Source of the DNA: a virus
Strand: one strand, 5' to 3'
Length of the DNA: 33,150 bases
Virus record (IMG/VR): IMGVR_UViG_3300025138_000179
Span: 1-33,150 of that record
In this document: in pieces, positions 9,691 through 21,952 of the stretch
Position numbering within the stretch: position 1 is the stretch's first letter
How the letters are laid out: each line of letters opens with the position of its first letter
Translations under genes and position numbers: made by a program
The notes under the pieces: model-generated
Seen by the model: only the letters and a program-made list of their open reading frames with translations
The model's database searches: none
What the model was told of the DNA's origin: nothing

Positions 9691-10146
9691 TTAACGGAAT
9701 TTTGACAATAATTTCGACGGTCTACCCGCCTTTCTCTTAGGTTTTGTTACATTTTCCTCTTCTGGTTCCGAAGTAAAATCAGAATGTTCAATAATATCAG
9801 CGTCTTGCACATCATCACCTTTACCTTCATTAGGTAAATGCACATCCTTTGCGTCAAGAATCCTGTTTGCCTCACCTATCCTTGAGGCCACATCTTGCAA
9901 GGCTAAAGCGAACTCAGACCCTGCACCTGTAACGCTTATATCTTGCGGTAAAAGCTTTGATAACTTGGATATTGTACCGCTTGCGTCTTTCTCCAATTGA
10001 TCAGCAATAAGGAAATCAACAGGCTTGCCGCGTTTGTCTGTAATATGAAGAGCAGAATAGATTTCTTTTCTTAATCTTGCTGTGATTTGTTGACCTGTTC
10101 CAGTGCCTTTTGGACGCCCAACACTATTCTTATTTTCTTTAACCAA
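9691..10146 (-). CDS. Probable terminase small subunit with two AT-hooks
   Basis: This is a 151-residue protein placed just upstream of the large terminase. Residues 10-14 (GRPKG) and 137-145 (KRKAGRPSK) are AT-hook-like minor-groove binding motifs at the two ends. The middle is helical (ITARLRKEIYSALHIT, DFLIADQLEKDASGTISKL, SEFALALQDVASRIGEANRI). An acidic linker follows, with many Asp/Glu from about residue 105. Position and DNA-binding character suggest recognition of the packaging site; the homology itself is not certain. The start is TTG at 10146, with GAGG eight bases upstream and no nearby ATG in frame. A run of eight C follows the stop codon on the coding strand. Confidence 0.6.
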   Translation of the reverse strand: MVKENKNSVGRPKGTGTGQQITARLRKEIYSALHITDKRGKPVDFLIADQLEKDASGTISKLSKLLPQDISVTGAGSEFALALQDVASRIGEANRILDAKDVHLPNEGKGDDVQDADIIEHSDFTSEPEEENVTKPKRKAGRPSKLLSKFR

Positions 10147-10182
10147 CTGTTTTTCCTCACTATTTATTTTATATTCTCTTTA

Positions 10183-10210
10183 TTTATAGCTAAATGAATA
10201 AATTATTCAA
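10183..10210 (-). promoter_or_regulatory. Possible late promoter (small terminase) with everted half-sites
   Basis: On the minus strand TTGAAT (10210-10205), 16 bases and TATAAA (10188-10183) form a fair sigma70 promoter about 40 bases before the TTG start. TGAAT-N5-ATTCA at 10195-10209 overlaps the -35 region; these are the same half-sites as the repressor operator but turned outwards. Confidence 0.35.
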
Positions 10211-10218
10211 TTAGTATG

Positions 10219-10262
10219 TTGACTTTTATATTCTATTACTATTATATTATTCACATCTGAAT
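10219..10262 (+). promoter_or_regulatory. Early promoter of the antirestriction operon with operator at the start site
   Basis: TTGACT (10219-10224), 18 bases and TATATT (10243-10248) form a sigma70-type promoter. The perfect palindrome ATTCA-CATC-TGAAT (10249-10262) lies where transcription should begin, about 25-38 bases upstream of the first ATG. A bound repressor would block initiation. The same palindrome occurs in two other promoters of this genome. Confidence 0.75.
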
Positions 10263-10286
10263 AAATTAAGTGTGGAAGGAAAACAG

Positions 10287-10589
10287 ATGCAAACAATAAT
10301 AACAAAGTATTTAGGCCCAACAAATAATAGAGGCTCTAGGATTAAGGCTATGCAATCAAGCAAGGGTTTTAATGGTGAAAGAGCTTATTCTATTACACGC
10401 TCGTATGACTACTCACTTGAGGTTGATGAAAACCATACGAAAGTAGCGAAAGAGTTCGCCGATAAAATGGGTTGGACAGGCGATTGGATTAGCGGCTCTA
10501 TTGATAATCACGGAGGTTATGTCTTCGTCAATTCATATTGGAAACATGAGACAAACTCTTTCGCTTGCTCTGTAAAAGAGGTGTCATAA
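10287..10589 (+). CDS. Conserved small protein preceding ArdC (KYLGPTNNRGSRIKA type)
   Basis: This is a 100-residue protein starting MQTIITKYLGPTNNRGSRIK, with SYDYSLEVDENHTKVAKEFA and KMGWTGDWISGSI, ending in GGYVFVNSYW and a short tail. The 'TKYxGPTNxRGSRIxA ... K.GW.G' pattern is a familiar hypothetical protein of plasmids and phages, often near antirestriction genes; its function is unknown to me. The ATG at 10287 is preferred over a GTG at 10272 because GGAAGGA precedes it. It is the first gene of the plus-strand operon, directly behind the operator-bearing promoter, and its stop overlaps the next start as TAATG. Confidence 0.75.
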   Translation: MQTIITKYLGPTNNRGSRIKAMQSSKGFNGERAYSITRSYDYSLEVDENHTKVAKEFADKMGWTGDWISGSIDNHGGYVFVNSYWKHETNSFACSVKEVS

Positions 10590-11479
10590 TGTCAAAAGCA
10601 AATGAAGCATTAAACGCAATAGCTCAGACTGTAATTACTATGATGAATGAGCATGGCACAAACTGGACAAAGCCTTGGAAGGATGCAGTCAGGGTTCATG
10701 GTCAACCAACAAGTGCCAAGAAAAGACCTTACACTGGTATCAACAGAATTAGCCTTGGATTGTCTATGGCAATCCATAGCCATACCTCGCCAGTGTTCGG
10801 AACTTTTAAACAATGGAAGTCCCTTGGTGCAAATGTCAGAAAAGGCTCTAAAGGTTACAAAGTAATATTTTACACAACAGTGATCGTAAAAGATAAAGAC
10901 ACTGACAAGGATAAGGCTTTACCATGTGCCAAGGTTTATACTGTCTTTAATAGTGATCAAGTTGAGAATTGGAATGGCTCTTGGTTAGAAGATGATATTG
11001 AAGAGTTTGACCAACAGTGGAGCAACATAAACGACGTTGACCAGTTCATCAATTCAATTGGCGCTAATATTACTTTGGATAATTCAAATAGTGCATTTTA
11101 TAGACCGTCAACTGACTCTATCCATATGCCAAACAAGGCACAATTTGACAATGCACAAGGCTATTATGGGACATTATTTCATGAGCTCGTGCACTGGACA
11201 GGCCATGAGACAAGAGAAGATAGAAAGCTTAACACTCGTTTTGGCTCTGATAAGTACGCATTCGAGGAGCTAATAGCTGAGTTAGGTGGTGCAATGCTAA
11301 GTGGTATTACTGGCGTTGAAGCTACACCAAGAGAAGACCATGCAATCTATCTTAACAATTGGATGCAGTGCCTAAAGGATGATCCAAGAGCTATTCAAAA
11401 AGCTTGTAGCTTAGCTGAAAAGGCTTCTCAGTTTGTCCTTAACAGCTCGTCAATAATAGTAATGAAAGAGGCCGCTTAA
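10589..11479 (+). CDS. ArdC-like antirestriction protein with zincin domain
   Basis: This is a 296-residue protein with two parts. Residues 1-120 match the ArdC N-terminal ssDNA-binding (DUF1738) type: NWTKPWKDA, PYTGINRISL, FGTFKQWKSLGANVRKGSKG. Residues about 140-290 form a metallopeptidase-like domain with LFHELVHWTGH (H198, E199, H202) and a downstream FEELIAELGG supplying the likely third zinc ligand. ArdC-family proteins protect incoming plasmid or phage DNA against restriction; whether peptidase activity is needed is unsettled. The ATG at 10589 overlaps the previous stop, with AGAGGTG upstream. Early, operator-controlled expression fits protection of DNA on entry. Confidence 0.88.
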   Translation: MSKANEALNAIAQTVITMMNEHGTNWTKPWKDAVRVHGQPTSAKKRPYTGINRISLGLSMAIHSHTSPVFGTFKQWKSLGANVRKGSKGYKVIFYTTVIVKDKDTDKDKALPCAKVYTVFNSDQVENWNGSWLEDDIEEFDQQWSNINDVDQFINSIGANITLDNSNSAFYRPSTDSIHMPNKAQFDNAQGYYGTLFHELVHWTGHETREDRKLNTRFGSDKYAFEELIAELGGAMLSGITGVEATPREDHAIYLNNWMQCLKDDPRAIQKACSLAEKASQFVLNSSSIIVMKEAA

Positions 11480-11590
11480 ATGCCTCTCTCTGAACTCCTA
11501 ACCATAATCAAACAAACAGCGCCTACTGATTGGGTGGGCGCAATCTTAATCTTTGCAACGTTCTTTGTTGCAATCTCAATTTTAACATAG
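11480..11590 (+). CDS. 36-residue single-span membrane peptide
   Basis: ATG at 11480 directly follows the ArdC stop (TAA then ATG). The product is MPLSELLTIIKQTAPTDW followed by one hydrophobic span, VGAILIFATFFVAISILT. The N-terminal half has both charges and the C-terminus ends inside the membrane. It fills the only gap between the ArdC and methyltransferase genes, and its stop lies eight bases before the next ATG. No family recognised. The ribosome-binding site is only modest (GAAAGAGG about ten bases before the ATG). A membrane-located early peptide might affect host membrane or defence systems, but this is speculation. Confidence 0.6.
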   Translation: MPLSELLTIIKQTAPTDWVGAILIFATFFVAISILT

Positions 11591-11598
11591 GTGACAAG

Positions 11599-12273
11599 AT
11601 GAATAGTATAGAAAACACAAAAGTATTGGTAGGCTGTGAAACAAGTGGGACAGTCAGAGAAGCTTTCACAAACTTGGGCTATGACACATGGTCCTGTGAC
11701 ATTCTCCCTAGCGACATTCCTACAAATCGACACATTCAAGACGATGTAAGAAACGTCCTTAAAATGGACAATTGGGATCTGGTGTTCATTGGACACCCAC
11801 CTTGCACAAGGCTTTGCAACTCTGGTGTTCGATGGCTGCACAAAGCACCACCCAACAGAACCAAGCTTGAAATGTGGCAAGAGCTAGAAGAGGGTACAGC
11901 GTTATTTTCTGAGCTTTGGAACGCAAACGTGCCTTGTTTAGCTATCGAAAATCCAGTTATGCACAAGTACGCCAAAGAGAGAATTATAAATTATAAACCG
12001 TTTGCCCAATCTGTGCAGCCTTGGGAGTTTGCAACGGATGAAGACGGAGAAGATAACGTCAAAAAACGGACTTGTTTTTGGACTCGTAACCTTCCCAATC
12101 TTGTGAAAACCGGAACACTTGACGGTTCAACAGCAAGGGCAGACGTACACAACGCCGCCCCTAGTGCAGACCGTTGGAAAATCCGTTCTAAGTTTTACCC
12201 TGCTCTAGCGGCGGCTATGGCCGAACAATGGGGAAACCATGCAGTGATGCAGAAAGCGGCGTTAGCAGCATGA
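11599..12273 (+). CDS. Short C5-cytosine methyltransferase-like protein
   Basis: This is a 224-residue protein. VLVGCETSGTVREAF (9-23) resembles the SAM-binding motif I. FIGHPPCTRLCNSGVRWL (63-80) carries the PPC motif with candidate catalytic C69, and AIENPVMHKYA (115-125) carries the ENP motif. These are motifs I, IV and VI of C5-methyltransferases. The protein is much shorter than complete enzymes and shows no obvious target-recognition domain; the C-terminal SADRWKIRSKFYPALAAAMA is typical of this phage family. It probably modifies phage DNA or acts together with another specificity factor. AGGTGAC precedes the ATG; the stop overlaps the next gene as ATGA. Confidence 0.78.
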   Translation: MNSIENTKVLVGCETSGTVREAFTNLGYDTWSCDILPSDIPTNRHIQDDVRNVLKMDNWDLVFIGHPPCTRLCNSGVRWLHKAPPNRTKLEMWQELEEGTALFSELWNANVPCLAIENPVMHKYAKERIINYKPFAQSVQPWEFATDEDGEDNVKKRTCFWTRNLPNLVKTGTLDGSTARADVHNAAPSADRWKIRSKFYPALAAAMAEQWGNHAVMQKAALAA

Positions 12274-12611
12274 CCAGTAAAATTTATAAAATTGCACACA
12301 ATCGCGGCAAGCCTCGCGTGTGGATGGAAGGTAAATTTCTGCTTGATCACGATATTATCAAGGGCATGAAGTTTGATAGATTGATGCCACACGTTGAGCA
12401 GGGCGAAAGAGATTACCCTTTGCAAATGACATTGGCTTTCCACTCAAAGGGAAGCCATACAGTAGCCGGATCAGAAACGCGCCCAATTATTGATTTGAAT
12501 GGTGCTTATCTCAATCAGATATTTGAGGGATGCACACACTACAAAGCGATAATGGATTTGGATGTAATCACGTCCAAGCTTTTAATTCACATTTCAGGGG
12601 TTAAACAATGA
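12270..12611 (+). CDS. Small protein coupled to the methyltransferase
   Basis: This is a 113-residue protein beginning MTSKIYKIAHNRGKPRVWME, followed by GKFLLDHDIIKGMKFDRL, and later RPIIDLNGAYLNQIFEG. The 'NRGKPRVWxEGKxL...G' segment recalls a small beta domain that I have seen next to, or fused with, phage cytosine methyltransferases. That would make this a separate partner, perhaps helping DNA recognition. This link is from memory and needs a profile search. The ATG overlaps the methyltransferase stop as ATGA, and its own stop overlaps the next ATG the same way, so the three genes are coupled. Confidence 0.65.
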   Translation: MTSKIYKIAHNRGKPRVWMEGKFLLDHDIIKGMKFDRLMPHVEQGERDYPLQMTLAFHSKGSHTVAGSETRPIIDLNGAYLNQIFEGCTHYKAIMDLDVITSKLLIHISGVKQ

Positions 12612-12826
12612 TCCACTTTCGTAAACCAACCGCGTTAAATGTAAGGCCATATACTGCACCGATAATAATGTTAGAACGTGCAGCAAGAGCCTTACCAAGT
12701 GCTATGGTATGCAAGATTTTGTATAGTGTCTTAGCTGATAATGACCGTATTCAGGCTGTTGATCTAGACACATTAGCCAACAAGCTAGGACGCATTGCAC
12801 ATGAAAGGCAAAGACAATGCAAGTAA
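12608..12826 (+). CDS. 72-residue protein of unknown function
   Basis: The product is MIHFRKPTALNVRPYTAPII, then MLERAARALPSAMVCKILYS, and an end QAVDLDTLANKLGRIAHERQ. It looks helical, with an amphipathic C-terminal half and a basic end; there is no membrane span or metal site. The start overlaps the previous stop as ATGA, and the last ten bases overlap the next gene. No family recognised. Inclusion rests on the tight packing within the plus-strand operon and on the compositional match with its neighbours. Confidence 0.6.
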   Translation: MIHFRKPTALNVRPYTAPIIMLERAARALPSAMVCKILYSVLADNDRIQAVDLDTLANKLGRIAHERQRQCK

Positions 12827-12993
12827 GCATTAACAGACTAACTGACTTTGCCTCAGACCTTGAGCAAGAATTACCAAAGTTGTCACGCGATATCTTAGAC
12901 GCGGCAACAAGAATTGAAAGATTAACGTTTCAAGTTGCAAGGTTAAAATCTGAAGTAATTATTTTACAAAAAGAAAAGGAGAATAAGCTATGA
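12817..12993 (+). CDS. 58-residue coiled-coil protein (short gene)
   Basis: ATG at 12817, ten bases inside the previous gene, opens a frame ending at 12993. The product starts MQVSINRLTDFASDLEQELP and continues with DILDAATRIERLTFQVARLK then SEVIILQKEKENKL. Heptad-spaced Leu/Ile/Val from about residue 26 onward predict a coiled coil. The stop overlaps the next ATG as ATGA (12990-12993). It fills a 170-base interval that would otherwise be empty in a fully packed operon. Function unknown; it may dimerise or bind another operon product. Confidence 0.65.
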   Translation: MQVSINRLTDFASDLEQELPKLSRDILDAATRIERLTFQVARLKSEVIILQKEKENKL

Positions 12994-13196
12994 CTAAATT
13001 CAAAATTGGACAAAATGTAATTTTAAAGCCAAACGCATATGAGCAAGACTATAATATGAAATTATGGTGTAATGAGCTAAATGGCAAAATTGGCAAAATT
13101 ACAAAAATATATGATGATGGTTGGAATGATGCAAAGGTAAGTTTTGGGAAATATGATGATAGAAGCATTAATATGGATTACTTAGACTTTGCATAA
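12990..13196 (+). CDS. Small beta-barrel-like protein
   Basis: This is a 68-residue protein: MTKFKIGQNVILKPNAYEQD, LNGKIGKITKIYDDGWNDAK, VSFGKYDDRSINMDYLDFA. The pattern 'F.iGq.V.lk...... GkiGkI..iy.....aKVsFg' resembles an SH3/KOW-type small beta barrel, a fold often used for nucleic-acid or protein contact. AAGGAG lies eight bases upstream of the ATG. It is the last gene of the plus-strand operon and ends four bases before the convergent minus-strand gene, with no obvious terminator between them. Confidence 0.65.
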   Translation: MTKFKIGQNVILKPNAYEQDYNMKLWCNELNGKIGKITKIYDDGWNDAKVSFGKYDDRSINMDYLDFA

Positions 13197-13200
13197 GCTA

Positions 13201-13704
13201 TCACCCTCTAGGCATCCCGAACACATCACCAAGCGCATCTAAGCACAGCCGTAAGGCCACTATTCCACCTTTAGGATCGTGGCCTTGTTGTTTTGCCCAT
13301 TCGTTTGCACTAGCACCCTCTACAACCACCCATTGCGCCACGTCTGACAGATCCTTGCCTATTGTCCTGAGTGCAGCAAGATAATCCGTAAAGGCATCGT
13401 GTCCTTGATCATCGTTTCCGCGTGTCCCATCCACTATGTTTGCATCGTATGACGCTGTAAGCTTTTGTGCTCTCCCTGCCCTACGCCACAAAGCATACAA
13501 CTTCATTCCGGCCTCAAACTGGCGTCTGTTGATCTGTTCACGCGAGTAATACCTATCTAACGGAGTCTGAACCGTCACACGCATCCGTTTAGGGCTTCCC
13601 AGACGCTTATCTGTGTTTTCGTAAGCGATACCTGAAGTATGCTGCAAACGCTCTCGTGTGCCGAAATCAGACGGCGTGTGGATCGGTTTCTTGCTCTTCA
13701 CCAT
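13201..13704 (-). CDS. DUF6456-like phage protein, possible regulator
   Basis: This is a 167-residue protein. TPLDRYYSREQINRRQFEAG in the middle and a C-terminal GGIVALRLCLDALGDVFG match what I remember of the alphaproteobacterial DUF6456 pattern: a '...PL..L...i...qf.AG..l' segment, then a terminal helix pair like that of sigma-4/HTH proteins. Such a protein placed last in the replication operon might control late genes, as antiterminator-type proteins do; this is inference. The ATG at 13704 lies inside the end of the preceding gene (38-base overlap) and has AAGGA upstream. Confidence 0.6.
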   Translation of the reverse strand: MVKSKKPIHTPSDFGTRERLQHTSGIAYENTDKRLGSPKRMRVTVQTPLDRYYSREQINRRQFEAGMKLYALWRRAGRAQKLTASYDANIVDGTRGNDDQGHDAFTDYLAALRTIGKDLSDVAQWVVVEGASANEWAKQQGHDPKGGIVALRLCLDALGDVFGMPRG

Positions 13705-13966
13705 TCTCTGTCCTTAAACTTAGTGCCAACGCTAGATAATTTATTGCATCCAAAATATTGTCCTCGCGCCAGTTAAGATCGTTTCTCCCTAGCTTAAACT
13801 CCACCATATCCATTGCGACATCGCTTGGTGTTATTCTTTCACCACGCCTAATAGATGAACGTATAGCCAACTGCTTAAACAATTCATCAGCGTGTCCATG
13901 CTCTCCACCACGTTCAATTAATATTTCTTTGCATGTTTCTAAAACTTGTAATGCGGCCTTACTCAT
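13667..13966 (-). CDS. DUF6378-like small phage protein
   Basis: This is a 99-residue protein. ILIERGGEHGHADELFKQLA, followed by RITPSDVAMDMVEFKLGRND and DNILDAINYLALAL, matches the small phage protein type with 'ERGxxHGd...... iTp.dva..m..lKlaR.. ....D...DaagYlala', which I associate with DUF6378. The helical layout with paired acidic residues resembles MazG-like folds, but no activity is established. The ATG overlaps the upstream stop by eight bases. It belongs to the downstream end of the replication operon. Confidence 0.68.
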   Translation of the reverse strand: MSKAALQVLETCKEILIERGGEHGHADELFKQLAIRSSIRRGERITPSDVAMDMVEFKLGRNDLNWREDNILDAINYLALALSLRTENGEEQETDPHAV

Positions 13967-14393
13967 TTTCTAATTCCCATTTTCTGCGTTTAATCATTTC
14001 TATTTGCCATTGCTTATATTTCGCCAGATTAGGTGCGTTTAAAATCTTTCTCCGATTAGCAATTCCTTCAAGCATTCCAATACATTTAATTTCACTCACC
14101 ACAGCTAAAAAATCCTTTTCTTTTAAATCAGCAAAATCAGACTTATTTCGGGTCAAGGTTTCGGGACAGGACATGACAGTATATAAATACTGTCCTGTTG
14201 TCCTGAGTTGTCCCAAAATAACCTCACCTTGTCCTAGCCGTGTCCTAGCCGTGTCCCCAAGTAGGCTAAGTATGTTGTTTTTATTGACTTTTTTCAGGAC
14301 ACCATCTGGGACATCAGGACACAGCCATTTTAGCTTTAAAACTCTCGTGTCCCCGCCGTGTCCCAGACCAATTTCGAACGGATATTCACCCAT
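13959..14393 (-). CDS. Unknown protein whose gene carries the TGTCCY array
   Basis: This is a 144-residue protein, from ATG 14393, which overlaps the primase-helicase stop as TGATG. It has MGEYPFEIGLGHGGDTRVLK, CPDVPDGVLKKVNKNNILSL in the middle, and a basic helical end KYKQWQIEMIKRRKWELENE. No family recognised. The coding DNA is unusual: it contains thirteen of fourteen clustered TGTCCY motifs in both orientations and in different reading frames, so the DNA rather than the protein seems to be constrained. By analogy with lambdoid O genes, it may encode an origin-linked protein or simply host the origin. Confidence 0.6.
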   Translation of the reverse strand: MGEYPFEIGLGHGGDTRVLKLKWLCPDVPDGVLKKVNKNNILSLLGDTARTRLGQGEVILGQLRTTGQYLYTVMSCPETLTRNKSDFADLKEKDFLAVVSEIKCIGMLEGIANRRKILNAPNLAKYKQWQIEMIKRRKWELENE

Positions 14394-14438
14394 CACCCAA
14401 ATGCCTCCAAAATCAACCCTTTTTCGAGCTTTAGGACA
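14164..14438. repeat. Cluster of 14 TGTCCY motifs (iteron-like array)
   Basis: TGTCC or its complement begins at 14164, 14169, 14191, 14199, 14209, 14230, 14241, 14252, 14297, 14309, 14317, 14348, 14359 and 14434. In every case the sixth base is a pyrimidine (TGTCCT or TGTCCC). Several spacings are near one to four helical turns (11, 11, 21, 22, 31, 45). Two copies form an 11-bp tandem repeat at 14230-14251. T-rich stretches flank and interrupt the array (14275-14294). Confidence 0.7.
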
Positions 14439-16159
14439 CCCTGATCTATCATCCTTTTTATGTGTCTATTTGCTGTTCTTTGAGAGCATTCTAGCTCCAA
14501 TGCCACCGCTTCCTTGAGGTCAGATCTGCTCACCTCGCCAAAGTCATTCATCCTATCGAATTGCTCTTTGACCACCTGTTCTGCGTAATCTGGTGATTTC
14601 TTATCCATTGGTTTATCTGGTGTCATTTCAAGCACGAGTGAGCTTGTGTCCTGACCATCTGCATCCACCAAAGACATAGACAATTTCAGGAACGCCAGTG
14701 GTTCGCTTTTCTCTTCATCTTTCATCTTGGTGGGCGTGAGTAATATCTTAAAATCGCCCCATTGTTCGACGCGATATTCAGAGTCTAGAGAGCCATGCAA
14801 AGCGTATCCACCACGCCCTCTATCCTTATTCTGGTGTCCTATGTGGTGGACAATCATCACAGTGGCTTGATAGCGGTCCTTTAGCCTGTCACAGACTTGA
14901 ACATACGCCATCATATTTTGATTATTTTCCTCTCCATCCATTGTTCTACTGAGTGTGTCGAGCACAATAAGGTTGAGCTTACCTATTTGCTCTTGGAGTG
15001 CGTCTAGCTCATTACATAGGTGTAGTTCACTATCTGGATCGTTTAGGATCACGCTACGATTGCTTTTGGCGAATGGTACACCTGTGAGGTCTTGGTTGAA
15101 GTTCTTACACCAAGCCGCGACACGTTTAGCGAACCCTGCATGCCCTTCCCCTGCGATATAGGCAACGCTACCTTTTTGCACCTCTAGTTCGTGGTATGGT
15201 TTGCCTGTGGCGATACACAGAGCCATATCAAGGGCTACGAACGTTTTACCTGATCCCGCCGCACCAAAGATCATGGCGAGGGAGTTTTCTTCTATAACGT
15301 TTTTGATCATCCACTTGGTTGCGGTCATGCGTAGATCGCTCACCATCGTGAAGAGTGTGTCGGGTTTTTTGACTGAGGTTAGGCTTTTGTGGACTGCCTT
15401 TAGTCCTAGCTGTTGGTGTAGATCGTTAAAGTCTTGTCCTTGTAGTGGTGGCACGACATAGGGCAGCTTTGTTTTCTTTGCTGCTTCTATCCCTTTTTCA
15501 TCGTTATCAGCCGCTACGACGAGTTCAAACTGAGGAAACGCCGTTTGTAGCTTGGTGCAGACTAAAGGTAAGTTCCCTGCGTCCAATGCGAATATACAGG
15601 CACATCCAGGTTGGGACATGGCTATACTTGCTGAAGTTGCCCATCCTTCGGCTACATAAGTGCGTCCTTTGGTGAGCTTACCACACACACCGAAAACACC
15701 TTCTGCCTTATTTAAGCCAGTGCTAAATAGTTTCTTTCCATCTGGTGAGATTGTTTGTTCACCCACACGTTGTCTGTGTATGTTGAACAGTGGAATGACT
15801 ACGTTGTGACCTTCAAGCTTTGCACCTAACAGATCAACGCCTTTTTTCTCATTATATGGCCTAGTATCTTCCACGTTAAATTCTTCTTTAGGTTGGAATG
15901 TTAAAACGTTGTCCTTGATAGGATCGAGTGAGCACAACAGACCACGTTTGGCGAGTTCGCTTTGGATTGCTTTAAAGTCACCACATTGTCTGCAATGGGT
16001 CTTGATTAATCCGTTGTGGTTGGTAATCCAGAATCTGTCTGTCCCACCACAGTTTACACAACAGCCATGCCACTCGCCTTTTGCGGTTTGCTTGAGGTCT
16101 AAACCATCTATGATCCGTTGGGCGTACTCACTCCAATAAGGTTGTTCGAAGTCAGCCAT
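14393..16159 (-). CDS. Primase-helicase (zinc finger, TOPRIM, RepA-like ATPase)
   Basis: This is a 588-residue replication protein with domains in order. A zinc ribbon has C34-x2-C37 and C56-x2-C59. A TOPRIM primase core has E171 in YVAEGWATSASI and D218-N-D220 in VVAADNDEKG. A RecA/RepA-type helicase has Walker A GAAGSGKT (299-306), a GEGH motif at 337-340, Walker B LIVLDTLSR (D401) and HH at 438-439. The C-terminal 60 residues look like a winged helix (FGEVSRSDLKEAVALELECS, then QRTANRHIKRM). It should unwind DNA and prime synthesis for the host polymerase, as no phage polymerase is visible. It lies after the SSB-like gene with a four-base gap. Confidence 0.9.
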   Translation of the reverse strand: MADFEQPYWSEYAQRIIDGLDLKQTAKGEWHGCCVNCGGTDRFWITNHNGLIKTHCRQCGDFKAIQSELAKRGLLCSLDPIKDNVLTFQPKEEFNVEDTRPYNEKKGVDLLGAKLEGHNVVIPLFNIHRQRVGEQTISPDGKKLFSTGLNKAEGVFGVCGKLTKGRTYVAEGWATSASIAMSQPGCACIFALDAGNLPLVCTKLQTAFPQFELVVAADNDEKGIEAAKKTKLPYVVPPLQGQDFNDLHQQLGLKAVHKSLTSVKKPDTLFTMVSDLRMTATKWMIKNVIEENSLAMIFGAAGSGKTFVALDMALCIATGKPYHELEVQKGSVAYIAGEGHAGFAKRVAAWCKNFNQDLTGVPFAKSNRSVILNDPDSELHLCNELDALQEQIGKLNLIVLDTLSRTMDGEENNQNMMAYVQVCDRLKDRYQATVMIVHHIGHQNKDRGRGGYALHGSLDSEYRVEQWGDFKILLTPTKMKDEEKSEPLAFLKLSMSLVDADGQDTSSLVLEMTPDKPMDKKSPDYAEQVVKEQFDRMNDFGEVSRSDLKEAVALELECSQRTANRHIKRMIDQGVLKLEKGLILEAFG

Positions 16160-16162
16160 ATT

Positions 16163-16858
16163 TTAAAATGGAATTTCATCGTCCATATCAGGATTTACCG
16201 CATCAGACTTTGCCGCCTGTTCCTGACCTTCTATTTCTAGGTCAAACGATGGTGGAGTAGGTGCGGGTTGCTTATCGGGTTGCTTGTCTTCTGGAATACC
16301 AAATGGGTCTACTTCATCACCACCATTATCCACCGCATCAAAATCGTCTGATTGATCTGCATACTTAGCCTCTATAACTTGCACGGCGCTGAGTAGTAGC
16401 TTTATACCCCATTGTTCAGCATTTGGGTTAAAGGTGGGCAACATTGCAAACTTAATGTTTCCTGTTGAGCCACTCCATATAGATAGGTCAGCAAGTGGTT
16501 GCTTTGCTCCATCTATGACTTTTATAGGCTGTGATGGAGTTCCCTTAGTTGTTACGCAACGCTTTCTTGCCGTAAATTGCACAGTACCATCGTCTTGTTT
16601 TTTCATACCATGAATTGTGCCAAACTTACCTAATTTACTGTTGATTTTCTTACACTCGTTAAAGTGTGCAATAGCTTGCTTCCACAAGTCTTGGCCCTCT
16701 TCATGCGATACTATGAAGGATATTGACCATTCAGCGTTTGGTGCGCTTTCGCTAACCTTTTCTGATTTTTCGATTTCTTTTTTATAAACATAGCCGCTAT
16801 CCAATCTAGGCCATTGAAAGATTACATTGCGTATTAATACATCCTTAAACTCTGACAT
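16163..16858 (-). CDS. Single-stranded DNA-binding protein (DUF2815-like)
   Basis: This is a 231-residue protein. The N-terminal two thirds have the look of phage gp2.5/DUF2815-type OB folds: VLIRNVIFQWPRLDSGYVYK, WSISFIVSHEEGQDLWKQAI and GNIKFAMLPTFNPNAEQWGI. The C-terminal 60 residues are Pro/Asp/Glu-rich and end in MDDEIPF, matching the acidic DDDIPF-type tip through which bacterial SSBs recruit partners. It should coat ssDNA during replication and recombination. GGAG precedes the ATG. It sits between the exonuclease and primase-helicase genes, a common phage recombination-replication arrangement. Confidence 0.85.
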   Translation of the reverse strand: MSEFKDVLIRNVIFQWPRLDSGYVYKKEIEKSEKVSESAPNAEWSISFIVSHEEGQDLWKQAIAHFNECKKINSKLGKFGTIHGMKKQDDGTVQFTARKRCVTTKGTPSQPIKVIDGAKQPLADLSIWSGSTGNIKFAMLPTFNPNAEQWGIKLLLSAVQVIEAKYADQSDDFDAVDNGGDEVDPFGIPEDKQPDKQPAPTPPSFDLEIEGQEQAAKSDAVNPDMDDEIPF

Positions 16859-16870
16859 TATTTTTCTCCA

Positions 16871-17689
16871 TTATATTTGATTAACCATCCATTCTTGGGG
16901 ATGGAGCATTGTAAAAGAGGGCCAACCAGTGCTGTAATCGCCTGTTGTTTTGGCCTCCTTTATTTGTTCCAAAACATCGTCAAGGCGTTCTGAGTAAATA
17001 CGCATTAGCTCTTGTGACATGAGGAATAAATTCACGCTATGTGGGGCTTTCTTTTCCACCACAGCGAAAGCAAAATAGATACATTGAATACCCTCTTGCT
17101 CACATACCCTTTTGTAAAATGCAGCTTGATAGCCGTATGCTAGGTCTACGAACTGTCTAAAAAAGTTCTTTTCTGTTGGAATTTTGCCAAAGGTTTTGAC
17201 ATCCATAATGATGCCCTTGTCCGTTGTGTATAGATCTGGACGTGCCTTTAATAATAAACCTGACTTTTTATCTATGGTGTAAACACTGGCTTCTTTTACC
17301 GCTGTTTCGTTTCGGGCGATTTTGCGTATGTCTTTATGTTTCCACAAAGCTTTTGTCATTTGCAGTGCTTTGGCGTATTCACCTTCCGGTAATAATATCA
17401 CGCCATTGTCTTTGGCTTGCTGATAGTCTTCAGCCCACGCTTTCCCTGCCCTTGATTTATGCTTGCCTATAACCGCTTGTTTTCGGTTTTTGCCTTCAAA
17501 CATTGCGTGTACACCAGAGCCAATATCTACAACGCTTGGGCTAAGATCTTCACTAGGTTGGCTTGCATGGTAAGGCGTTGTGGTCAGAAACTTTTTTACA
17601 AAGCTTGAGGATAACCCATCGCTATCATGGTATTGTTTGTTAGTGAGGTCGTGGAATATACCTGTCTTCATATCTACTTTAAGTGGCAT
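16871..17689 (-). CDS. RecE-like PDDEXK exonuclease (DUF3799 type)
   Basis: This is a 272-residue nuclease. GSGVHAMF (H61), E133 in AVKEASVYTI, KARPDLY (D152), IIMDVKTF (D163, K165) and YGYQAAFYKR (Q188) form the H/E/D/D-x-K/Q set of the lambda-exonuclease/RecE branch of the PDDEXK superfamily. Such enzymes degrade the 5' strand of duplex ends to leave 3' tails for annealing. No separate RecT/Beta annealase is visible; the SSB-like neighbour may fill that place or the host RecA may be used. The start overlaps the stop of the upstream gene as TAATG. Confidence 0.85.
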   Translation of the reverse strand: MPLKVDMKTGIFHDLTNKQYHDSDGLSSSFVKKFLTTTPYHASQPSEDLSPSVVDIGSGVHAMFEGKNRKQAVIGKHKSRAGKAWAEDYQQAKDNGVILLPEGEYAKALQMTKALWKHKDIRKIARNETAVKEASVYTIDKKSGLLLKARPDLYTTDKGIIMDVKTFGKIPTEKNFFRQFVDLAYGYQAAFYKRVCEQEGIQCIYFAFAVVEKKAPHSVNLFLMSQELMRIYSERLDDVLEQIKEAKTTGDYSTGWPSFTMLHPQEWMVNQI

Positions 17690-18294
17690 TATTCATCCTC
17701 ATCTTCAGGATAAATTTTGCCGTGACCGTCACAGATTTCACAGACTACTTCAGTATTACGTCCATTACCATTTGGGAAAACGTCGAGATATTCAGTTGAT
17801 GGGTGGCGTGTGACTACACCTAATCCGTTGCACTCGTGACAGTGCAGTGTATTCACAGTCGCTTTTCTAACTGGCTTTATTTTAATTGGTGTGATTGCCA
17901 TTAGTTCCCGCGCAAGTGAACAAAACGCATCCACTGTCATACTTACGAGATCCAGGTTTTCGTCCCAATCACCGCCAACAGCCTTGGCAAACGCATTTAT
18001 TCTAATCACTGCTATGCTTGGTTGGCGGTCAAAACGATATATTACACAGGGGAATTTACCCACTCTATCTGCTGCACGTTGGGCTTGTTCCATCCACGCT
18101 TGCTTAAAGCTACCAGATACACGCCGCTTACATTCTATAACAAATGGGAAGTTTTCAGCTTCACAGATTAGGTCGCCATGATCAGCTTCACGATATTGAT
18201 TTAGCTCACGTTTAAAAACCAAACCAAGATTTTCAAACAATGTGTTTTTAATTTCTGATTCGTACCCAACCCCTTTGGCGCGACTATTCACCAT
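17689..18294 (-). CDS. Holliday-junction-resolvase-like nuclease with C-terminal zinc knuckle
   Basis: This is a 201-residue protein. The N-terminal half has the resolvase/PDDEXK set GVGYESEI (E12/E14), ADHGDLI (D41) and FVIECKRR (E54-C-K56). The C-terminal part has CHECNGLG (C152, C155) and CEICDGHG (C185, C188), a paired CxxC-GxG zinc site like that in DnaJ. The pairing suggests a structure-specific nuclease with a zinc module for DNA or protein contact. It probably resolves branched replication and recombination intermediates before packaging. The start lies inside the last eleven bases of the Cro-like gene, and the stop overlaps the exonuclease start. Confidence 0.75.
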   Translation of the reverse strand: MVNSRAKGVGYESEIKNTLFENLGLVFKRELNQYREADHGDLICEAENFPFVIECKRRVSGSFKQAWMEQAQRAADRVGKFPCVIYRFDRQPSIAVIRINAFAKAVGGDWDENLDLVSMTVDAFCSLARELMAITPIKIKPVRKATVNTLHCHECNGLGVVTRHPSTEYLDVFPNGNGRNTEVVCEICDGHGKIYPEDEDE

Positions 18295-18544
18295 CGAAAA
18301 TTACCTCGCCTCTTTGGGCAGCTTGAAAAGATCTAATTGCGTCCTGAATGTCATCTTTGATCGTGAGCCATGCTTCTACTGGCACGTCATTGTTTGTGAT
18401 TTTTTGGATTTTTAAGGCAGTCACAACACTTGGTACAACGTCACCACTGATGTACCTAGATAGAGTAGGTTGGGATACGCCGATTCTCTCAGCGAGGGAT
18501 GCCTGTGATACCTCTTTCGTGATCATGTATTCAAATAACTGCAA
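18284..18544 (-). CDS. Cro-like HTH regulator
   Basis: This is an 86-residue protein with an XRE-type helix-turn-helix (VSQASLAERIGVSQPTLSRY, followed by ISGDVVP) near the N-terminus and a short C-terminal helix. It is divergent from the repressor operon, with 240 bp of AT-rich regulatory DNA between them, and is the first gene of the replication operon. This is the Cro position in lambda-like switches. It probably lowers repressor expression and its own early transcription during lytic growth. The ATG at 18544 is used; no strong ribosome-binding site is visible before it. Confidence 0.82.
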   Translation of the reverse strand: MQLFEYMITKEVSQASLAERIGVSQPTLSRYISGDVVPSVVTALKIQKITNNDVPVEAWLTIKDDIQDAIRSFQAAQRGEVIFDGE

Positions 18545-18575
18545 GATTTTAGCCTAAATTTTGTCGATTTGTTTA

Positions 18576-18606
18576 ATTCATATTCAAATAAAATGCACTA
18601 TGTCAA
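18576..18606 (-). promoter_or_regulatory. Replication-operon (cro) promoter with imperfect operator
   Basis: On the minus strand TTGACA (18606-18601), 18 bases and TATGAA (18582-18577) form a good promoter about 30 bases before the cro ATG. ATTCA-TATT-CAAAT (18576-18589) overlaps its -10 box and differs from the ATTCA-N4-TGAAT palindrome at two positions. Confidence 0.65.
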
Positions 18607-18731
18607 CTACAATATAGGTAGAATAGTCATATTTATTAATCAATATGATGCTAAGTAATTGCTTTCTATCAATATTATATAGTCATGCAATGTTATATTA
18701 TAATCATTTTGATAATTGAGTATTTTTATTA

Positions 18732-18761
18732 TTGACACATTAATTCATATGTGAATAAAAT
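18732..18761 (+). promoter_or_regulatory. Repressor-operon promoter with perfect operator in the spacer
   Basis: TTGACA (18732-18737), 18 bases and TAAAAT (18756-18761) form a strong promoter 25 bases before the leader gene. The palindrome ATTCA-TATG-TGAAT (18743-18756) fills most of the spacer, so repressor binding should switch this promoter off, giving autoregulation. Confidence 0.75.
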
Positions 18762-18785
18762 ACTTTAGTGATAAAGGAATGGAAA

Positions 18786-19097
18786 ATGAATATAGCTTAT
18801 TTTACTGATATACAGAAAAATAAAAACAACGGCTATATATATGTTTGGTCCTACTTAGTTACCTCAACATCACTGGTTATACCTAAGTTAACGCATGTGG
18901 CAAAGAGGGAAGTTCCTCAGTCAGATTGGGTTAACGGAAATCATTGGGGTATGCCTAACGTCCAAACAGCCCCGCCGTTGTTAAAATTTTCTGCGAGAGT
19001 TCGTGATGCACTTTTAGCACTAAACATAGGTGCAGACCTGTATTGCGGTTTTAATAAAAACGGACCTAGGTGGGCTAGAACTTACCCACCGCCATAG
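18786..19097 (+). CDS. Leader gene of the repressor operon, unknown function
   Basis: This is a 103-residue protein starting MNIAYFTDIQKNKNNGYIYV, with REVPQSDWVNGNHWGMPNVQ in the middle, FSARVRDALLALNIGADLYC and an end GPRWARTYPPP. It has several Trp and Tyr residues and no membrane span. The ATG at 18786 is preferred to an upstream GTG because AAAGGA lies seven bases before it. The gene is transcribed from the operator-controlled promoter and ends 23 bases before the repressor start, so the two are coexpressed. No family recognised. A repressor modulator or superinfection-exclusion protein is possible, from position only. Confidence 0.65.
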   Translation: MNIAYFTDIQKNKNNGYIYVWSYLVTSTSLVIPKLTHVAKREVPQSDWVNGNHWGMPNVQTAPPLLKFSARVRDALLALNIGADLYCGFNKNGPRWARTYPPP

Positions 19098-19120
19098 AAT
19101 AATAAAGAGTGGGGGACATT

Positions 19121-19771
19121 GTGTTCACAAGAATTTACGATGTTAGAACAAAGTTAAAAGTTAAACAGGACGAATTAGCAAAATTGTCCGGTGTGAGTCA
19201 GAGCCAAATTAGCAAATATGAGAAAGGTGAAGTAACCAATCCAAGTTTTGATAAACTCGTTAGATTAGCAGAAGCACTTGGGGTTACAGTGGACGATCTT
19301 AAAACAAAGACCGATGATCAAGATTTTTCACCAATTAGACAGACCACATCAGCCGTATTTGTCCCTTTTTACCAAGGGAAGACAAAAGTGAGAGAATTAG
19401 ATAATGCCTTTGCAGCCCGATTGGGTTTTAATAGGTTAGCTCACCAACAAATTAGAAAACCAAGCTTTCTAGAGTATTCTGATACTGCTTACGCTATGAC
19501 TGTGTATGGTGATCATATGCAGCCGCGCTACAAAGAAGGTGATATAATCTATGCAGACCCGCAACTGATTGTCCAAGAAGAGGATAATGTTGTTGTATCG
19601 TTTAAGGTAGATGGTGCTTTTGTTGGTGTGGTGAGAGAAGTTTTAAGTATAAACGAAAATACTGTTTCATTTAAAGATCTTAAAAGTGGTCAGTCTAAAA
19701 CGTTTAAACTTACCGATCTATACGCGGTACATGTGGTTGTTGGATCACAAAATTATCGCGCAAATCAATAA
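19121..19771 (+). CDS. CI-like repressor with degenerate S24 peptidase domain
   Basis: This is a 216-residue protein (GTG start at 19121, GGGGGA four bases upstream; a GTG at 19109 is an alternative). Residues 10-60 are an XRE HTH (KQDELAKLSGVSQSQISKYE). Residues about 120-205 have the S24/LexA-like fold (TAYAMTVYGDHMQPRYKEGD, IIYADP, VVVSFKVDGAFVGVVREV). The expected catalytic Ser of G-D-S-M is His132, and the expected Lys of the VKRL-type segment appears to be Arg172. No Ala-Gly or Cys-Gly cleavage site is evident in the linker. The protein should bind ATTCA-N4-TGAAT sites as a dimer, but RecA-stimulated self-cleavage is doubtful. Confidence 0.85.
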   Translation: MFTRIYDVRTKLKVKQDELAKLSGVSQSQISKYEKGEVTNPSFDKLVRLAEALGVTVDDLKTKTDDQDFSPIRQTTSAVFVPFYQGKTKVRELDNAFAARLGFNRLAHQQIRKPSFLEYSDTAYAMTVYGDHMQPRYKEGDIIYADPQLIVQEEDNVVVSFKVDGAFVGVVREVLSINENTVSFKDLKSGQSKTFKLTDLYAVHVVVGSQNYRANQ

Positions 19772-19783
19772 AATAAAATTGTT

Positions 19784-19840
19784 AAACTAACCTTGGAATG
19801 TTATTATTTTCTGAGGTTAGTTAACATCAAACTAACCTCA
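19784..19840. terminator. Convergent-gene hairpin with alternative partner
   Basis: TGAGGTTAGTT (19812-19822) and AACTAACCTCA (19830-19840) form an 11-pair perfect stem with a seven-base loop between the convergent repressor and integrase genes. An upstream copy of AAACTAACCT (19784-19793) could pair with the same AGGTTAGTT instead. There is no clear T-run on either side, so terminator function is not certain. Confidence 0.5.
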
Positions 19841-19847
19841 CGAAAAC

Positions 19848-20975
19848 CTAATGTAATGTTATGATGTATTCCTCACCGTAAACATCTTCAGGACGTATCT
19901 GGCGGTAGTGCTTATCAGTCACATTACTGCCAACCTTATGCCCAACAAGCACCTGAACATGGTCCTTGCTTTTGTTCTCATTAAGAAGCTTGTTTATGTA
20001 AAACCTACGCAATCCATGAAAACCAAACTTTTCCACATTTGCCCTGACACATGCCTTATGTAAAACCGATTTCAACACATCGCTTGCTGCGAATAGATTA
20101 CCTTTGGCATTGGTAAACAGCCACTGACTATCGCTTACTGATTTAAGCTGAAGCAAATCATCTTTTAAGTCTTTGCTTATCCTAACTATGCGATTGCTTC
20201 CGGCGGTTTTCGTATCGCCTAGCTCACGTCGATCATTACTGAGTCTAATGTGGATCTTATCACCGTCGATAGCATCCCACCGTAGAGCAAGTATCTCACT
20301 GATCCTCATTCCGTTTGCAGCGGCAAGCTTGATCATAACTTTCTTCCAATGAACACCTGTCACATTCAGTATTGCAACAACTTCCTCTTCAGTTGGTGTG
20401 TATCTTGGATCAGCTTCTTTACATTGCAGCGCATCCACTTCTAGACATGGATTATGTTCGACTAAGCTTTTTTGTTTAAAAAATTTAAAAATACGCCGCA
20501 TTGTTCCAACAATTGTATTCGCGTATTGCGGTGACATATGTTTTTGCAACTCTTCCTGGAAGTTCATAACATTTGGTGTGGTTATGTCATGCACATCCAT
20601 ATTGCCGAAATGCGGTAGGATATGTTTGTTAATATGCACCAAGATAGTTGTGCGCCTGTTAGGTCTTAGCCTACGCCCATATTTTGAGTCACTCTTAAAG
20701 TTCTCAACTCTTTCGTCTATCTCAGCTTTGTAGAGCGTAATTAGATCCACCAGAAGTGAAGATTGCTCTTTATCTAACGTGCCAGAGTATTTTAGTTTTA
20801 TGTCTTGTTTTTGCGCCCAAGCTATCGGTTCTCTGCCCTTTGGTACTTGTCGCATTTTCTCAGTGTTGGTTTTCTTATCCATATATCGGATCACATAGGT
20901 TTGCTCACCCCTGCGTTCTCGTAAATGTAATTTAAGGTATTTACCTTCCCATAGTGCCATTTTTTTTCCATTCAT
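19848..20975 (-). CDS. int: Tyrosine-type site-specific integrase
   Basis: This is a 375-residue phage integrase. An N-terminal arm-binding-like region (about 1-65) is followed by a core-binding helical domain (about 70-175) and the catalytic domain. R224 in NGMRISEILALRW, K256 in GDTKTAGSNR, H320-x2-R323 in FHGLRRF, H346 in LVGHKVGS and Y357 in DKHYRQI form the full catalytic set, so the enzyme looks active. It should recombine attP (the tRNA-Gly fragment 170 bases upstream of the gene) with the host tRNA gene. The ATG at 20975 and one at 20960 are both possible. Its promoter carries the repressor palindrome, so integration is probably under repressor control. Confidence 0.93.
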   Translation of the reverse strand: MNGKKMALWEGKYLKLHLRERRGEQTYVIRYMDKKTNTEKMRQVPKGREPIAWAQKQDIKLKYSGTLDKEQSSLLVDLITLYKAEIDERVENFKSDSKYGRRLRPNRRTTILVHINKHILPHFGNMDVHDITTPNVMNFQEELQKHMSPQYANTIVGTMRRIFKFFKQKSLVEHNPCLEVDALQCKEADPRYTPTEEEVVAILNVTGVHWKKVMIKLAAANGMRISEILALRWDAIDGDKIHIRLSNDRRELGDTKTAGSNRIVRISKDLKDDLLQLKSVSDSQWLFTNAKGNLFAASDVLKSVLHKACVRANVEKFGFHGLRRFYINKLLNENKSKDHVQVLVGHKVGSNVTDKHYRQIRPEDVYGEEYIITLH

Positions 20976-21016
20976 TATCTTATCAGGTAAAGACTATCTT
21001 ACCCATTTATCTTGTC

Positions 21017-21046
21017 ATTCTATTCATGTATGAATGGCATTGTCCA
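21017..21046 (-). promoter_or_regulatory. Integrase promoter with perfect operator in the spacer
   Basis: On the minus strand TGGACA (21046-21041), 18 bases and TAGAAT (21022-21017) form a promoter about 40 bases before the integrase ATG. The palindrome ATTCA-TGTA-TGAAT (21022-21035) lies in the spacer and touches the -10 box, as in the repressor-operon promoter. Confidence 0.72.
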
Positions 21047-21047
21047 T

Positions 21048-21081
21048 AAAAAAAGAGGCGCACCCCACATGAGATACGCCT
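21048..21081 (-). terminator. Terminator insulating the integrase from the late operon
   Basis: On the minus strand AGGCG (21081-21077) pairs with CGCCT (21060-21056), and the stem can extend inward with G-T pairs to an ATGT loop. It is followed by C and seven T (complement of 21054-21048). It lies between the lysis genes and the integrase promoter, so it should stop late transcripts from entering int. Confidence 0.75.
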
Positions 21082-21110
21082 AACTTATTGATAACAATGT
21101 AAATTAAATT

Positions 21111-21130
21111 ATATTCACGCAATATTCACG
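21111..21130 (+). repeat. Direct repeats beside attP, possible integrase arm sites
   Basis: ATATTCACG occurs at 21111-21119 and 21122-21130, one helical turn apart, on the integrase side of attP. Inverted related cores (TTGAATATT near 21234 and TCTGAATACT near 21256) lie on the other side. This two-sided layout fits arm-type integrase sites. Confidence 0.4.
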
Positions 21131-21147
21131 TTATAGGTAATATTCTT

Positions 21148-21192
21148 TTGCCAAGGTAAATGTCGAGAGTTCGAATCTCTTCGCCCGCTCCA
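21148..21192 (+). other. attP core: 3' half of tRNA-Gly(GCC)
   Basis: The segment carries an anticodon loop TTGCCAA (21148-21154, anticodon GCC), a T-arm GAGAG-TTCGAAT-CTCTT (21165-21181), the acceptor 3' strand CGCCCGC (21182-21188), discriminator T and CCA (21190-21192). The 5' half (a GCGGGCG acceptor strand, D-arm and the 5' side of the anticodon stem) is absent, so it is not a working tRNA gene. Phages that integrate in tRNA genes carry exactly such a 3' part in attP, restoring the host gene after integration. It lies next to the integrase. The rest of 20976-21313 holds only the promoter, terminator and repeats listed separately. Confidence 0.87.
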
Positions 21193-21265
21193 ATAATTTC
21201 CCAATAAAAACAATCACTTACGACAAGTTATTTTTGAATATTTTTGCGGTAAAATCTGAATACTC

Positions 21266-21287
21266 GTGACCAAAATGGCTTGGTCAC
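21266..21287. repeat. Perfect inverted repeat downstream of the endolysin gene
   Basis: GTGACCAA (21266-21273), a six-base loop and TTGGTCAC (21280-21287) form an eight-pair stem. CGTGACC recurs at about 21306. There is no T-run directly after it on either strand. It could be a weak terminator at the end of the late operon or a protein-binding site next to attP. Confidence 0.5.
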
Positions 21288-21313
21288 TGGATTGCATTTA
21301 CTTTTCGTGACCA

Positions 21314-21952
21314 TTACTTCAGCCACTCATAGATCTTAAATGTTTGATTTGTACGCTCGTCTAAGTGATTATACCCGCCATTTACTGACTTGGTGACTCG
21401 TTTACATGTGTCTTTGCTCACACCCTCATCACATATTTTCCAAAGCCCTCGCCGCTTGTTGAAGTACCATAAAGCACTCTCCATAGGATAGTGTGATGAT
21501 ATAAGTTGTGGTTCATCCATTACGTCCGGCAAGCGCATATCACTGGCAAACTTACGCACGTTTGCACGTCCGGTTACTTGTAAAAATCCACGTCCTCGAA
21601 AAATCCAACCATCGTCTGTGTCAACATTGCCAAGTTTAGATTTCTCACTACGGTTTTTATCCATGTATACATAGTTTGCTAATGCTCTTGGGTTTTTCGA
21701 ATATGGCTTGGCATCAGCCCTAGTTTTAAAATATCTGCCAAAGACCTTCATCAAAGCATCGACTGAATAGTTTAAGTTTTCCTCAACAGCTTGAAAGTTC
21801 ATGCTTTCAATACACACCTGTCCTAAGAAATGTGCAGCCCTCTCAGGTGACATTTCATAATACTTCATAATTCCTTTTGCTGTGTTTGGCCCAAATTGAC
21901 CATCTGGCGTACACCCACACTTTTGTTGTAGGTTTCTGAATCCTTCACTCAT
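21314..21952 (-). CDS. Endolysin, glycoside hydrolase family 19 (chitinase-like lysozyme)
   Basis: This is a 212-residue cell-wall hydrolase. Residues 5-30 (FRNLQQKCGCTPDGQFGPNT, then AKGI) look like a short peptidoglycan-binding repeat. AHFLGQVCIES (E49) and VEENLNYS (E58) hold the candidate catalytic acids of GH19, and WIFRGRGFLQVTGRANV (116-132) is the family signature. It cuts glycan strands of murein at lysis. There is no signal peptide, so export depends on the holins encoded upstream. The start at 21952 is chosen because of the eight-base overlap with the upstream gene and a GGAG site; a longer frame to 22102 lies wholly inside that gene. Confidence 0.88.
   Translation of the reverse strand: MSEGFRNLQQKCGCTPDGQFGPNTAKGIMKYYEMSPERAAHFLGQVCIESMNFQAVEENLNYSVDALMKVFGRYFKTRADAKPYSKNPRALANYVYMDKNRSEKSKLGNVDTDDGWIFRGRGFLQVTGRANVRKFASDMRLPDVMDEPQLISSHYPMESALWYFNKRRGLWKICDEGVSKDTCKRVTKSVNGGYNHLDERTNQTFKIYEWLK

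Follow-up and report, generated by a model that had tools for sequence, protein, structure and literature searches.

The virus record IMGVR_UViG_3300025138_000179 of IMG/VR, analysed here as a whole (33,150 bases, hereafter the window), poses the question of why a single 14-bp palindrome, ATTCA-N4-TGAAT, should recur in three distant promoters, those of an early anti-restriction operon, a repressor operon and the integrase gene, and which protein would read it. We propose that the palindrome, in the form ATTCR-N4-YGAAT, serves a single phage helix-turn-helix (HTH) repressor as its dimer operator. The best candidate for this repressor is the CI-like protein encoded at 19109-19771 (+ strand), which perhaps shares the operator with the Cro-like protein encoded at 18284-18544 (- strand), and we put the probability that the CI-like protein, alone or together with Cro, is the reader at about 0.58. 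One phage-encoded regulator probably reads the operator and keeps all three promoters off; we infer that a protein binds these sites, which protein it is and in which direction it acts. RNA polymerase would be blocked by repressor bound within the spacer of the repressor-operon and integrase promoters and across the start region of the early operon. CI in a lysogen would then hold down its own production and silence both the early anti-restriction operon and the integrase gene, with a weaker copy of the operator covering the -10 of cro, and after infection all promoters would be open until the switch is set.

A scan of the whole window finds exact copies of ATTCA-N4-TGAAT at 10249-10262, 18743-18756 and 21022-21035 and nowhere else, as reported by a first-pass annotation made from the letters of this DNA. 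The first copy (ATTCACATCTGAAT, + strand) immediately follows the -10 of the early promoter (10219-10248, + strand; -35 TTGACT at 10219-10224, 18 nucleotides, -10 TATATT at 10243-10248) and spans the expected start site. The second (ATTCATATGTGAAT, + strand) lies in the spacer of the repressor-operon promoter (18732-18761, + strand; TTGACA, 18 nucleotides, TAAAAT), and the third (ATTCATACATGAAT in minus-strand letters) in that of the integrase promoter (21017-21046, - strand; TGGACA at 21046-21041, 18 nucleotides, TAGAAT at 21022-21017), each of these two sharing one base with the -10 of its promoter (TGAATARAAT). Both the promoter scan and a check of the letters agree with the earlier claim that each perfect site sits in a promoter with 18-base spacing, for the window at least; by our own reading of the alignment some relatives have 17 or 19 bases at the early promoter. 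When positions 9600-21500 were scanned for sigma70-like promoters, the repressor-operon promoter was the single best of 28 matches (11/12), and the integrase and early promoters tied at 10/12 with five matches that are unrelated to the sites or lie on the opposite strand; among these eight top-scoring matches, an 18-nucleotide spacer occurs only in the three that bear operators. Since the 28 matches are not in excess of shuffled sequence (28.8 expected), the three promoters are credible through their conservation and not through the scan.

For the palindrome, three exact copies compare with 0.05 expected (standard deviation 0.26; largest 2), and none of 100 dinucleotide shuffles reaches three. 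Three copies of some arm are unexceptional in themselves, however, because a control 5-4-5 palindrome, with AGTAT as its arm, likewise has three copies in the window (5416, 14178 and 19473), in every case within a reading frame; what is exceptional about ATTCA-N4-TGAAT is its position and its conservation. Allowing two mismatches, the motif is not enriched in the window (30 found versus 26.3 expected; 22 of 100 shuffles reach 30), which is why imperfect copies carry little weight without conservation, and further comparisons used only exact or RY-degenerate copies together with conservation. Everted half-sites, TGAAT-AAATT-ATTCA, stand upstream of the early -35 at 10195-10209, their letters being as first reported, and half-sites of the form TGAAT-N5-ATTCA recur in six of nine aligned early regions, those of L018-L020 being without them.

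Relatives were collected through searches with CI, integrase, ArdC and capsid proteins, and the close-relative alignment counts include the window as well as some rows that look near-identical (L018-L020; L005 and L023). The aligned upstream regions keep ATTC-N6-GAAT at every early (9/9), repressor (8/8) and integrase (11/11) promoter, 28 of 28 in all. The arms vary only by A or G at position 5 or by the mirror change at position 10, never in both, giving the variants ATTCG-TATC-TGAAT, ATTCG-TATA-TGAAT and ATTCA-TAAT-CGAAT. Among the nine aligned early regions the first gene is of five kinds, and the operator and leader GTGTGGA...ACAGAT in front of it remain in place. In the four end-to-end records, the window and G001, G002 and G003, ATTCR-N4-YGAAT occurs three times each, all 12 copies being at the early, repressor and integrase promoters; none falls within a reading frame of our own simple model, and these records are thus free of the many extra coding copies that the first-pass annotation had named as evidence against the site. 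A joint pattern of promoter and operator, TKGACA-N5-ATTCR-N4-YGAAT-ARAAT, matches 14 stretches on 11 contigs in IMG/VR, all of them in relatives already found. The most distant member of the window clade, L210, whose integrase is 53% identical, also carries the integrase operator. No CI relative was found at E 1e-5 among INPHARED phages, and none was confirmed in genome contigs by a weak scan with two short search patterns.

The distant relatives are records whose CI is 40-61% identical, extracted whole or in part. Among 50 CI loci, 27 weak ones (L225-L251) were left out, L001, L002, L003 and L007 served in the close alignment only, and L209 and L224 hold a partial CI. In 16 of the 18 records compared (all but L213 and G016), down to CI identities of 40-48%, the repressor operon has a -35-like hexamer that is followed, at 1-10 nucleotides, by an operator-like site, the operators having been chosen beforehand and the -35 taken as the best hexamer within 0-15 nucleotides; the best -10 in these records scores only 3-5 of 6. 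The invariant columns in the corresponding letter counts are no evidence, because the 14 operators counted were picked for fitting ATTC...GAAT. The arms of the repressor-side site are perfect in most records, 9/10 in G003, G004 and G006, and 8/10 in G005, L221 and L222, with sites of ATGCA type treated as a class of their own. Operators at the repressor and early promoters, respectively, are ATTCATAAATGAAT and ATTCGTTTATGAAT in G007, ATTCATATATGAAT and ATTCATTTATGAAT in G009, and ATTCATTTTTGAAG and ATTCATTTATGAAG in G004. A palindrome score that assumes no motif gives a site shared by the repressor and early regions in 9 of 11 records, in which at most 8 of 200 Markov shuffles score as well.

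In two of these records, G008 and its relative L217, the operator is of another type. G008 has ATGCA-N4-TGCAT at both the repressor promoter (ATGCAAATGTGCAT) and the early promoter (ATGCAGATGTGCAT), and L217 has it at the repressor promoter (ATGCATATGTGCAT) and a single ATGCA arm at the early promoter (ATGCAGATATGAAT). That the operator type has changed at both promoters points to a single phage-encoded reader. For six records chosen from the 11, 12 of the 720 possible arrangements, counting ties and the true pairing itself, score at least as high as the true pairing of repressor and early sites, a result that is modest because G008 and L217 are related.

Which of the two HTH proteins is this reader? 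The recognition helix of CI is SQSQISKY in the window, G007 and G009 and SQSQLSKY in G008 and L217, the records with ATGCA-type operators, and that of Cro, SQPTLSRY, is identical in the window, G008 and G009. Because the CI helix changes with the operator type and the Cro helix stays constant, we lean to CI. As a side observation, an ATTCA-type near-operator (ATTCATAAATGACT) abuts the -35 of cro in G008 and L217, as if the CI and Cro sites differed there.

A number of results weigh against this proposal, in whole or in part. The CI helix of G016, SQSQISKI, goes with an ATGCA-N4-TGCAT candidate in the cro-CI region, and if this is its operator then operator type does not follow the CI helix. 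Mantel-type correlations among operator, CI-HTH, CI C-terminal and Cro distances, computed for 17 of the 18 records (all but G016, whose operator is a candidate), give r 0.33 between operator and CI-HTH distance (2 of 2000 permutations) and r 0.30 between operator and Cro distance (0 of 2000), which is about equal; neither partial correlation is significant (406 and 865 of 2000), and among nine records taken one per clade operator distance shows no correlation. The early promoter is comparable in only 11 of the 18 records, and two of these, G006 and L221, have no site shared by the repressor and early regions (80 and 151 of 200 shuffles, respectively, score as well). A third ATGCA-N4-TGCAT of G008 lies within a reading frame, as does the repressor-side site of G009 in our gene model. 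Outside the window clade, inspection by eye of G004-G009, G016, L213, L217, L219-L222 and L224 gave no full integrase operator, the region upstream of int holding half-sites, nothing, or in G009 one 9/10 copy. Integrase control is hence not general in this phage family, and we reject it as a family-wide rule, the full site being confined to the window clade including L210.

The cro side adds to these difficulties. The cro promoter (18577-18606, - strand) was found by eye and is absent from the promoter scan list; it has a perfect -35, TTGACA at 18606-18601, an 18-nucleotide spacer and the -10 TATGAA at 18582-18577, which is covered, as the first-pass annotation had it, by a weak imperfect operator at 18576-18589 (- strand; ATTCATATTCAAAT in + strand letters) with two mismatches. 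A cro-side copy matches 9/10 in 7 of the 18 records but lies over the -10 in only four (the window, G002, G004 and G006). The strongest site would block the promoter of the repressor itself, the cro promoter having only the weak copy, an arrangement that suits Cro as the binder no less well, and possibly better. In L003, L004 (the same as G001) and L007 another inverted repeat, TTATGCATA-N9-TATGCATAA, was seen by eye in place of the weak site.

The alternative that survives best takes the sites to be mainly Cro operators, such that Cro would shut the repressor operon, the integrase gene and later the early operon during lytic growth, and other sites would serve CI in maintaining lysogeny. We judge this improbable, though still a serious contender. 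It would account for the best site being in the repressor promoter and a weak one at the cro promoter, and for operator distance tracking Cro distance as well as it tracks CI distance; the Cro helix SQPTLSRY also resembles SQSQISKY of CI. There is moreover a precedent, since Cro of phiKO2 binds a single operator upstream of the repressor gene and that of PY54, as cited in the same paper, likewise has a single operator (PMC4997575). Against it, the Cro helix is the same in the window, G008 and G009 despite the different operator of G008, and the window, G001, G002 and G003 have no other palindrome (5-base arms, spacer 2-8) that recurs at two or more noncoding places. Without such a recurring palindrome there is no obvious second set of operators for CI, although degenerate or single sites would escape this search.

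That the palindrome is mere promoter sequence of these phages (spacer plus -10 consensus), or chance, is already disfavoured, and we consider it quite improbable. It does share a base with the -10 of two promoters, degenerate copies and promoter-like matches are both at background, and in two records the early and repressor regions share no site. Yet the position of the site relative to the -35 varies between promoters and clades, both arms are kept in all 28 aligned close promoters, no copies occur elsewhere in four records, and both arms are of the other type at two promoters of G008. Reading of the sites by a host transcription factor, which would tie phage genes to host physiology, is very improbable, for although the motif is present in all eight tested bacterial genomes bearing the attachment tRNA sequence (see below), its 19 occurrences in about 25.7 Mb of these genomes are at the level of a backward control (18), against 3 in 0.033 Mb of phage, the operator letters change in a phage-specific manner between related phages of constant layout, and the motif differs from the LexA box GTTC-N7-GTTC, which is not enriched in the window.

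The suggestion of the first-pass annotation that the integrase and anti-restriction genes are under the lysogeny repressor thus comes through only in part. What speaks for it is a single operator family that recurs at three widely separated promoters and is retained in close relatives, with distant relatives keeping the operator at the repressor promoter and mostly at the early one; the integrase part applies to the window clade, and the assignment to the repressor is weakened by correlations that do not separate CI from Cro, by the misfit of G016 and by the sparse cro-side copies.

The CI-like repressor (220 residues) has an HTH_3 domain (E 2e-17) and an S24-like C-terminal domain (E 1.1e-5). 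Its AlphaFold model (mean predicted local distance difference test score 79.8) matches the C-terminal fragment of lambda repressor with Z 12.5 (125 residues, root-mean-square deviation 3.5) and LexA with Z 11.8, and the HTH of the model matches SinR, CylR2, 434 Cro and P22 c2. Judged by these domains and this model, the protein is of the lambdoid type, with an N-terminal HTH_3 domain and a C-terminal lambda/LexA fold. To place the self-cleavage dyad we used the catalytic Ser and His of the SEC11 signal peptidase. The nucleophile position (the residue before an invariant Met, aligned to the SEC11 Ser) is Ser in 2 of 18 homologues and the position aligned to the SEC11 general base is Arg in all 18, never Lys; by these positions, which are set by the SEC11 alignment and not by one to LexA, a Ser-Lys dyad is absent from all 18. 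Because the repressor lacks the dyad, RecA-stimulated cleavage is unlikely, and induction probably goes by another route. The LexA box of Alphaproteobacteria is GTTC-N7-GTTC, of which the window, the one sequence scanned, has one exact copy, located inside a reading frame (1954-1968), and 18 copies with at most one mismatch versus 23.5 expected; with no enrichment of the box, there is no sign of an SOS-controlled antirepressor. The CB repressors of N15 and phiKO2 are also described as being without the Ser and Lys (PMC4997575), and the Gifsy repressors are inactivated by antirepressors and not cleaved (PMC3121763).

Taken together, these features allow a fuller but tentative picture, which we think is rather doubtful as a whole. 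Marine Rhodobacteraceae phages of this kind might have a compact three-operator lysogeny regulon, in which a non-cleavable CI, turned off via an antirepressor or a cotranscribed small partner and not by SOS cleavage, would read a single site at each of three places: its own operon, an insulated integrase promoter next to attP, and a plug-in operon that swaps its anti-restriction genes (ArdC in the window; ArdA in relatives) while the operator in front of them stays fixed. Changes from ATTCA to ATGCA would give rise to new immunity groups in which the cassette site persists. If the binding is true, the operator type could be read from sequence, and immunity groups and cross-immunity of uncultivated marine temperate phages would become predictable from metagenomes. 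The site further marks the place of exchangeable early genes in these phages, including those for anti-restriction, and the missing dyad suggests that the prophages are not induced via the standard SOS cleavage route.

Multi-operator lysogeny control is already known, and the window is a conserved and mostly ordinary example of it. Lambda exerts such control through OL and OR, with three operators in tandem, and its anti-restriction gene ral lies in the CI-controlled PL operon; by this analogy, anti-restriction genes under lysogeny control would be unsurprising. The window resembles lambda, 434 and P22 in its divergent cro and cI, its HTH repressor with a lambda-fold C-terminal domain, and its operators at the repressor promoter and at an early operon with anti-restriction functions, and the repetition of the operator at a second early promoter recalls OL and OR (9 of 11 comparable records share the site). 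It differs from lambda in having one full dimer site per promoter rather than three in tandem; the cro-CI region holds one full and one weak site, and tandem operators were not found there. The cro and repressor promoters are separate, with their -35s 125 bp from each other, the integrase gene has an operator-bearing promoter of its own, and the repressor is without the cleavage dyad. Operators of 434 are 14 bp long with fixed outer bases, ACAA/TTGT, and the resemblance to 434-type operators that was first remarked on holds for that layout, the window operator being a 14-bp palindrome with ATTC/GAAT fixed in 28 of 28, but its letters differ.

Other systems share single elements with the window. 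The telomere phages N15, phiKO2 and PY54 combine a repressor without Ser and Lys with operators both in the cB-cro region and at another locus. That locus is OL, upstream of the replication gene repA of the plasmid prophage, and the operators number five and are 16 bp long (PMC4997575), in place of the anti-restriction operon, integrase and single 14-bp sites of the window. TP901-1 likewise has three separate CI operators (OR, OL and OD), each bound by CI dimers, but all of these are inside the switch region, with the third located in mor, and in its CI a hook and a multimerisation region take the place of an S24-like domain (PMC7250872). MrpR of SP-beta is a master repressor that reads a short element (SPBRE) repeated across the genome, but it has a tyrosine-recombinase fold (PMC10516654). 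In Cluster A mycobacteriophages one repressor reads a repeated element and the operator motif and repressor diverge together, but there are 20-30 stoperators, most of them outside promoters (PMC6550527), compared to exactly three, all in promoters, in the window and G001-G003. The traits proper to the window group are the single-site layout, the integrase promoter behind a terminator and the exchangeable early operon (ArdC in the window; ArdA in G004 and L221). Literature searches for CI-controlled integrase promoters, Roseobacter prophage operators and CI-controlled anti-restriction, in which few subscription journals were covered, gave no title on this phage group among the matches listed.

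The remaining genes of the three operons are as follows. The first early-operon gene (10272-10589, + strand; 105 residues, phrog_3199) is swapped for other genes in most close relatives. The second (10565-11479, + strand) is of the ArdC anti-restriction type (ArdcN E 2.8e-26, MPTase-PolyVal E 1.8e-44, phrog_7245 E 1.2e-79), and comparison with G003 and L018 suggests that it likely starts at the ATG at 10589. The early operons of G004 and L221 instead carry ArdA (PF07275; E 8.4e-26 and 2.2e-28, respectively). The Cro-like protein has 86 residues and a TTG start. Upstream of the repressor and in the same operon lies a small variable protein, P109 (18768-19097, + strand), that has no match in Pfam, PHROGs or NCBIfam; its C-terminus reads W...[YH]PPP in the window, G001 and G002, and it is a candidate CI modulator or exclusion protein.

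The tyrosine integrase (19848-20975, - strand; 375 residues) is preceded by an intrinsic terminator-like hairpin (21056-21081, - strand) whose T-run ends at the integrase -35. The attP (21150-21192, + strand) is the 3' part of a tRNA gene, read as tRNA-Gly(GCC), which occurs in marine Rhodobacteraceae genomes. Since the 61 occurrences of this stretch in bacterial genomes are mostly in entries titled Rhodobacteraceae or Alphaproteobacteria, many of them marine, the host probably belongs to a marine Rhodobacteraceae-type group.

Further elements lie within the early operons. At about 11530-11600 in the window, a leader with a terminator-like hairpin (11553-11573) stands ahead of the third early gene (11530-12273), which looks by eye like a DNA methyltransferase and has no Pfam or NCBIfam match. 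The translation of the leader (MGGRNLNLCNVLCCNLNFNIGDKM) recurs, slightly changed, before different genes in G001, G002, L018 and L021 and is more diverged in G003. Between early-operon genes of the distant relatives there is a stem-loop-like intergenic element of about 50-70 nucleotides, TGACGCATCG...GCAGCGCTT..GGCGCTGCATTGCCATGCGCCAAAGCATG, at 19860-19912 and 20752-20804 in G007, near 9006 and 9304 in G004, near 23096 in G006 and, diverged, near 12607 in G008. It is located near the end of a gene and ahead of the next start, and might be a cassette separator or an RNA element.

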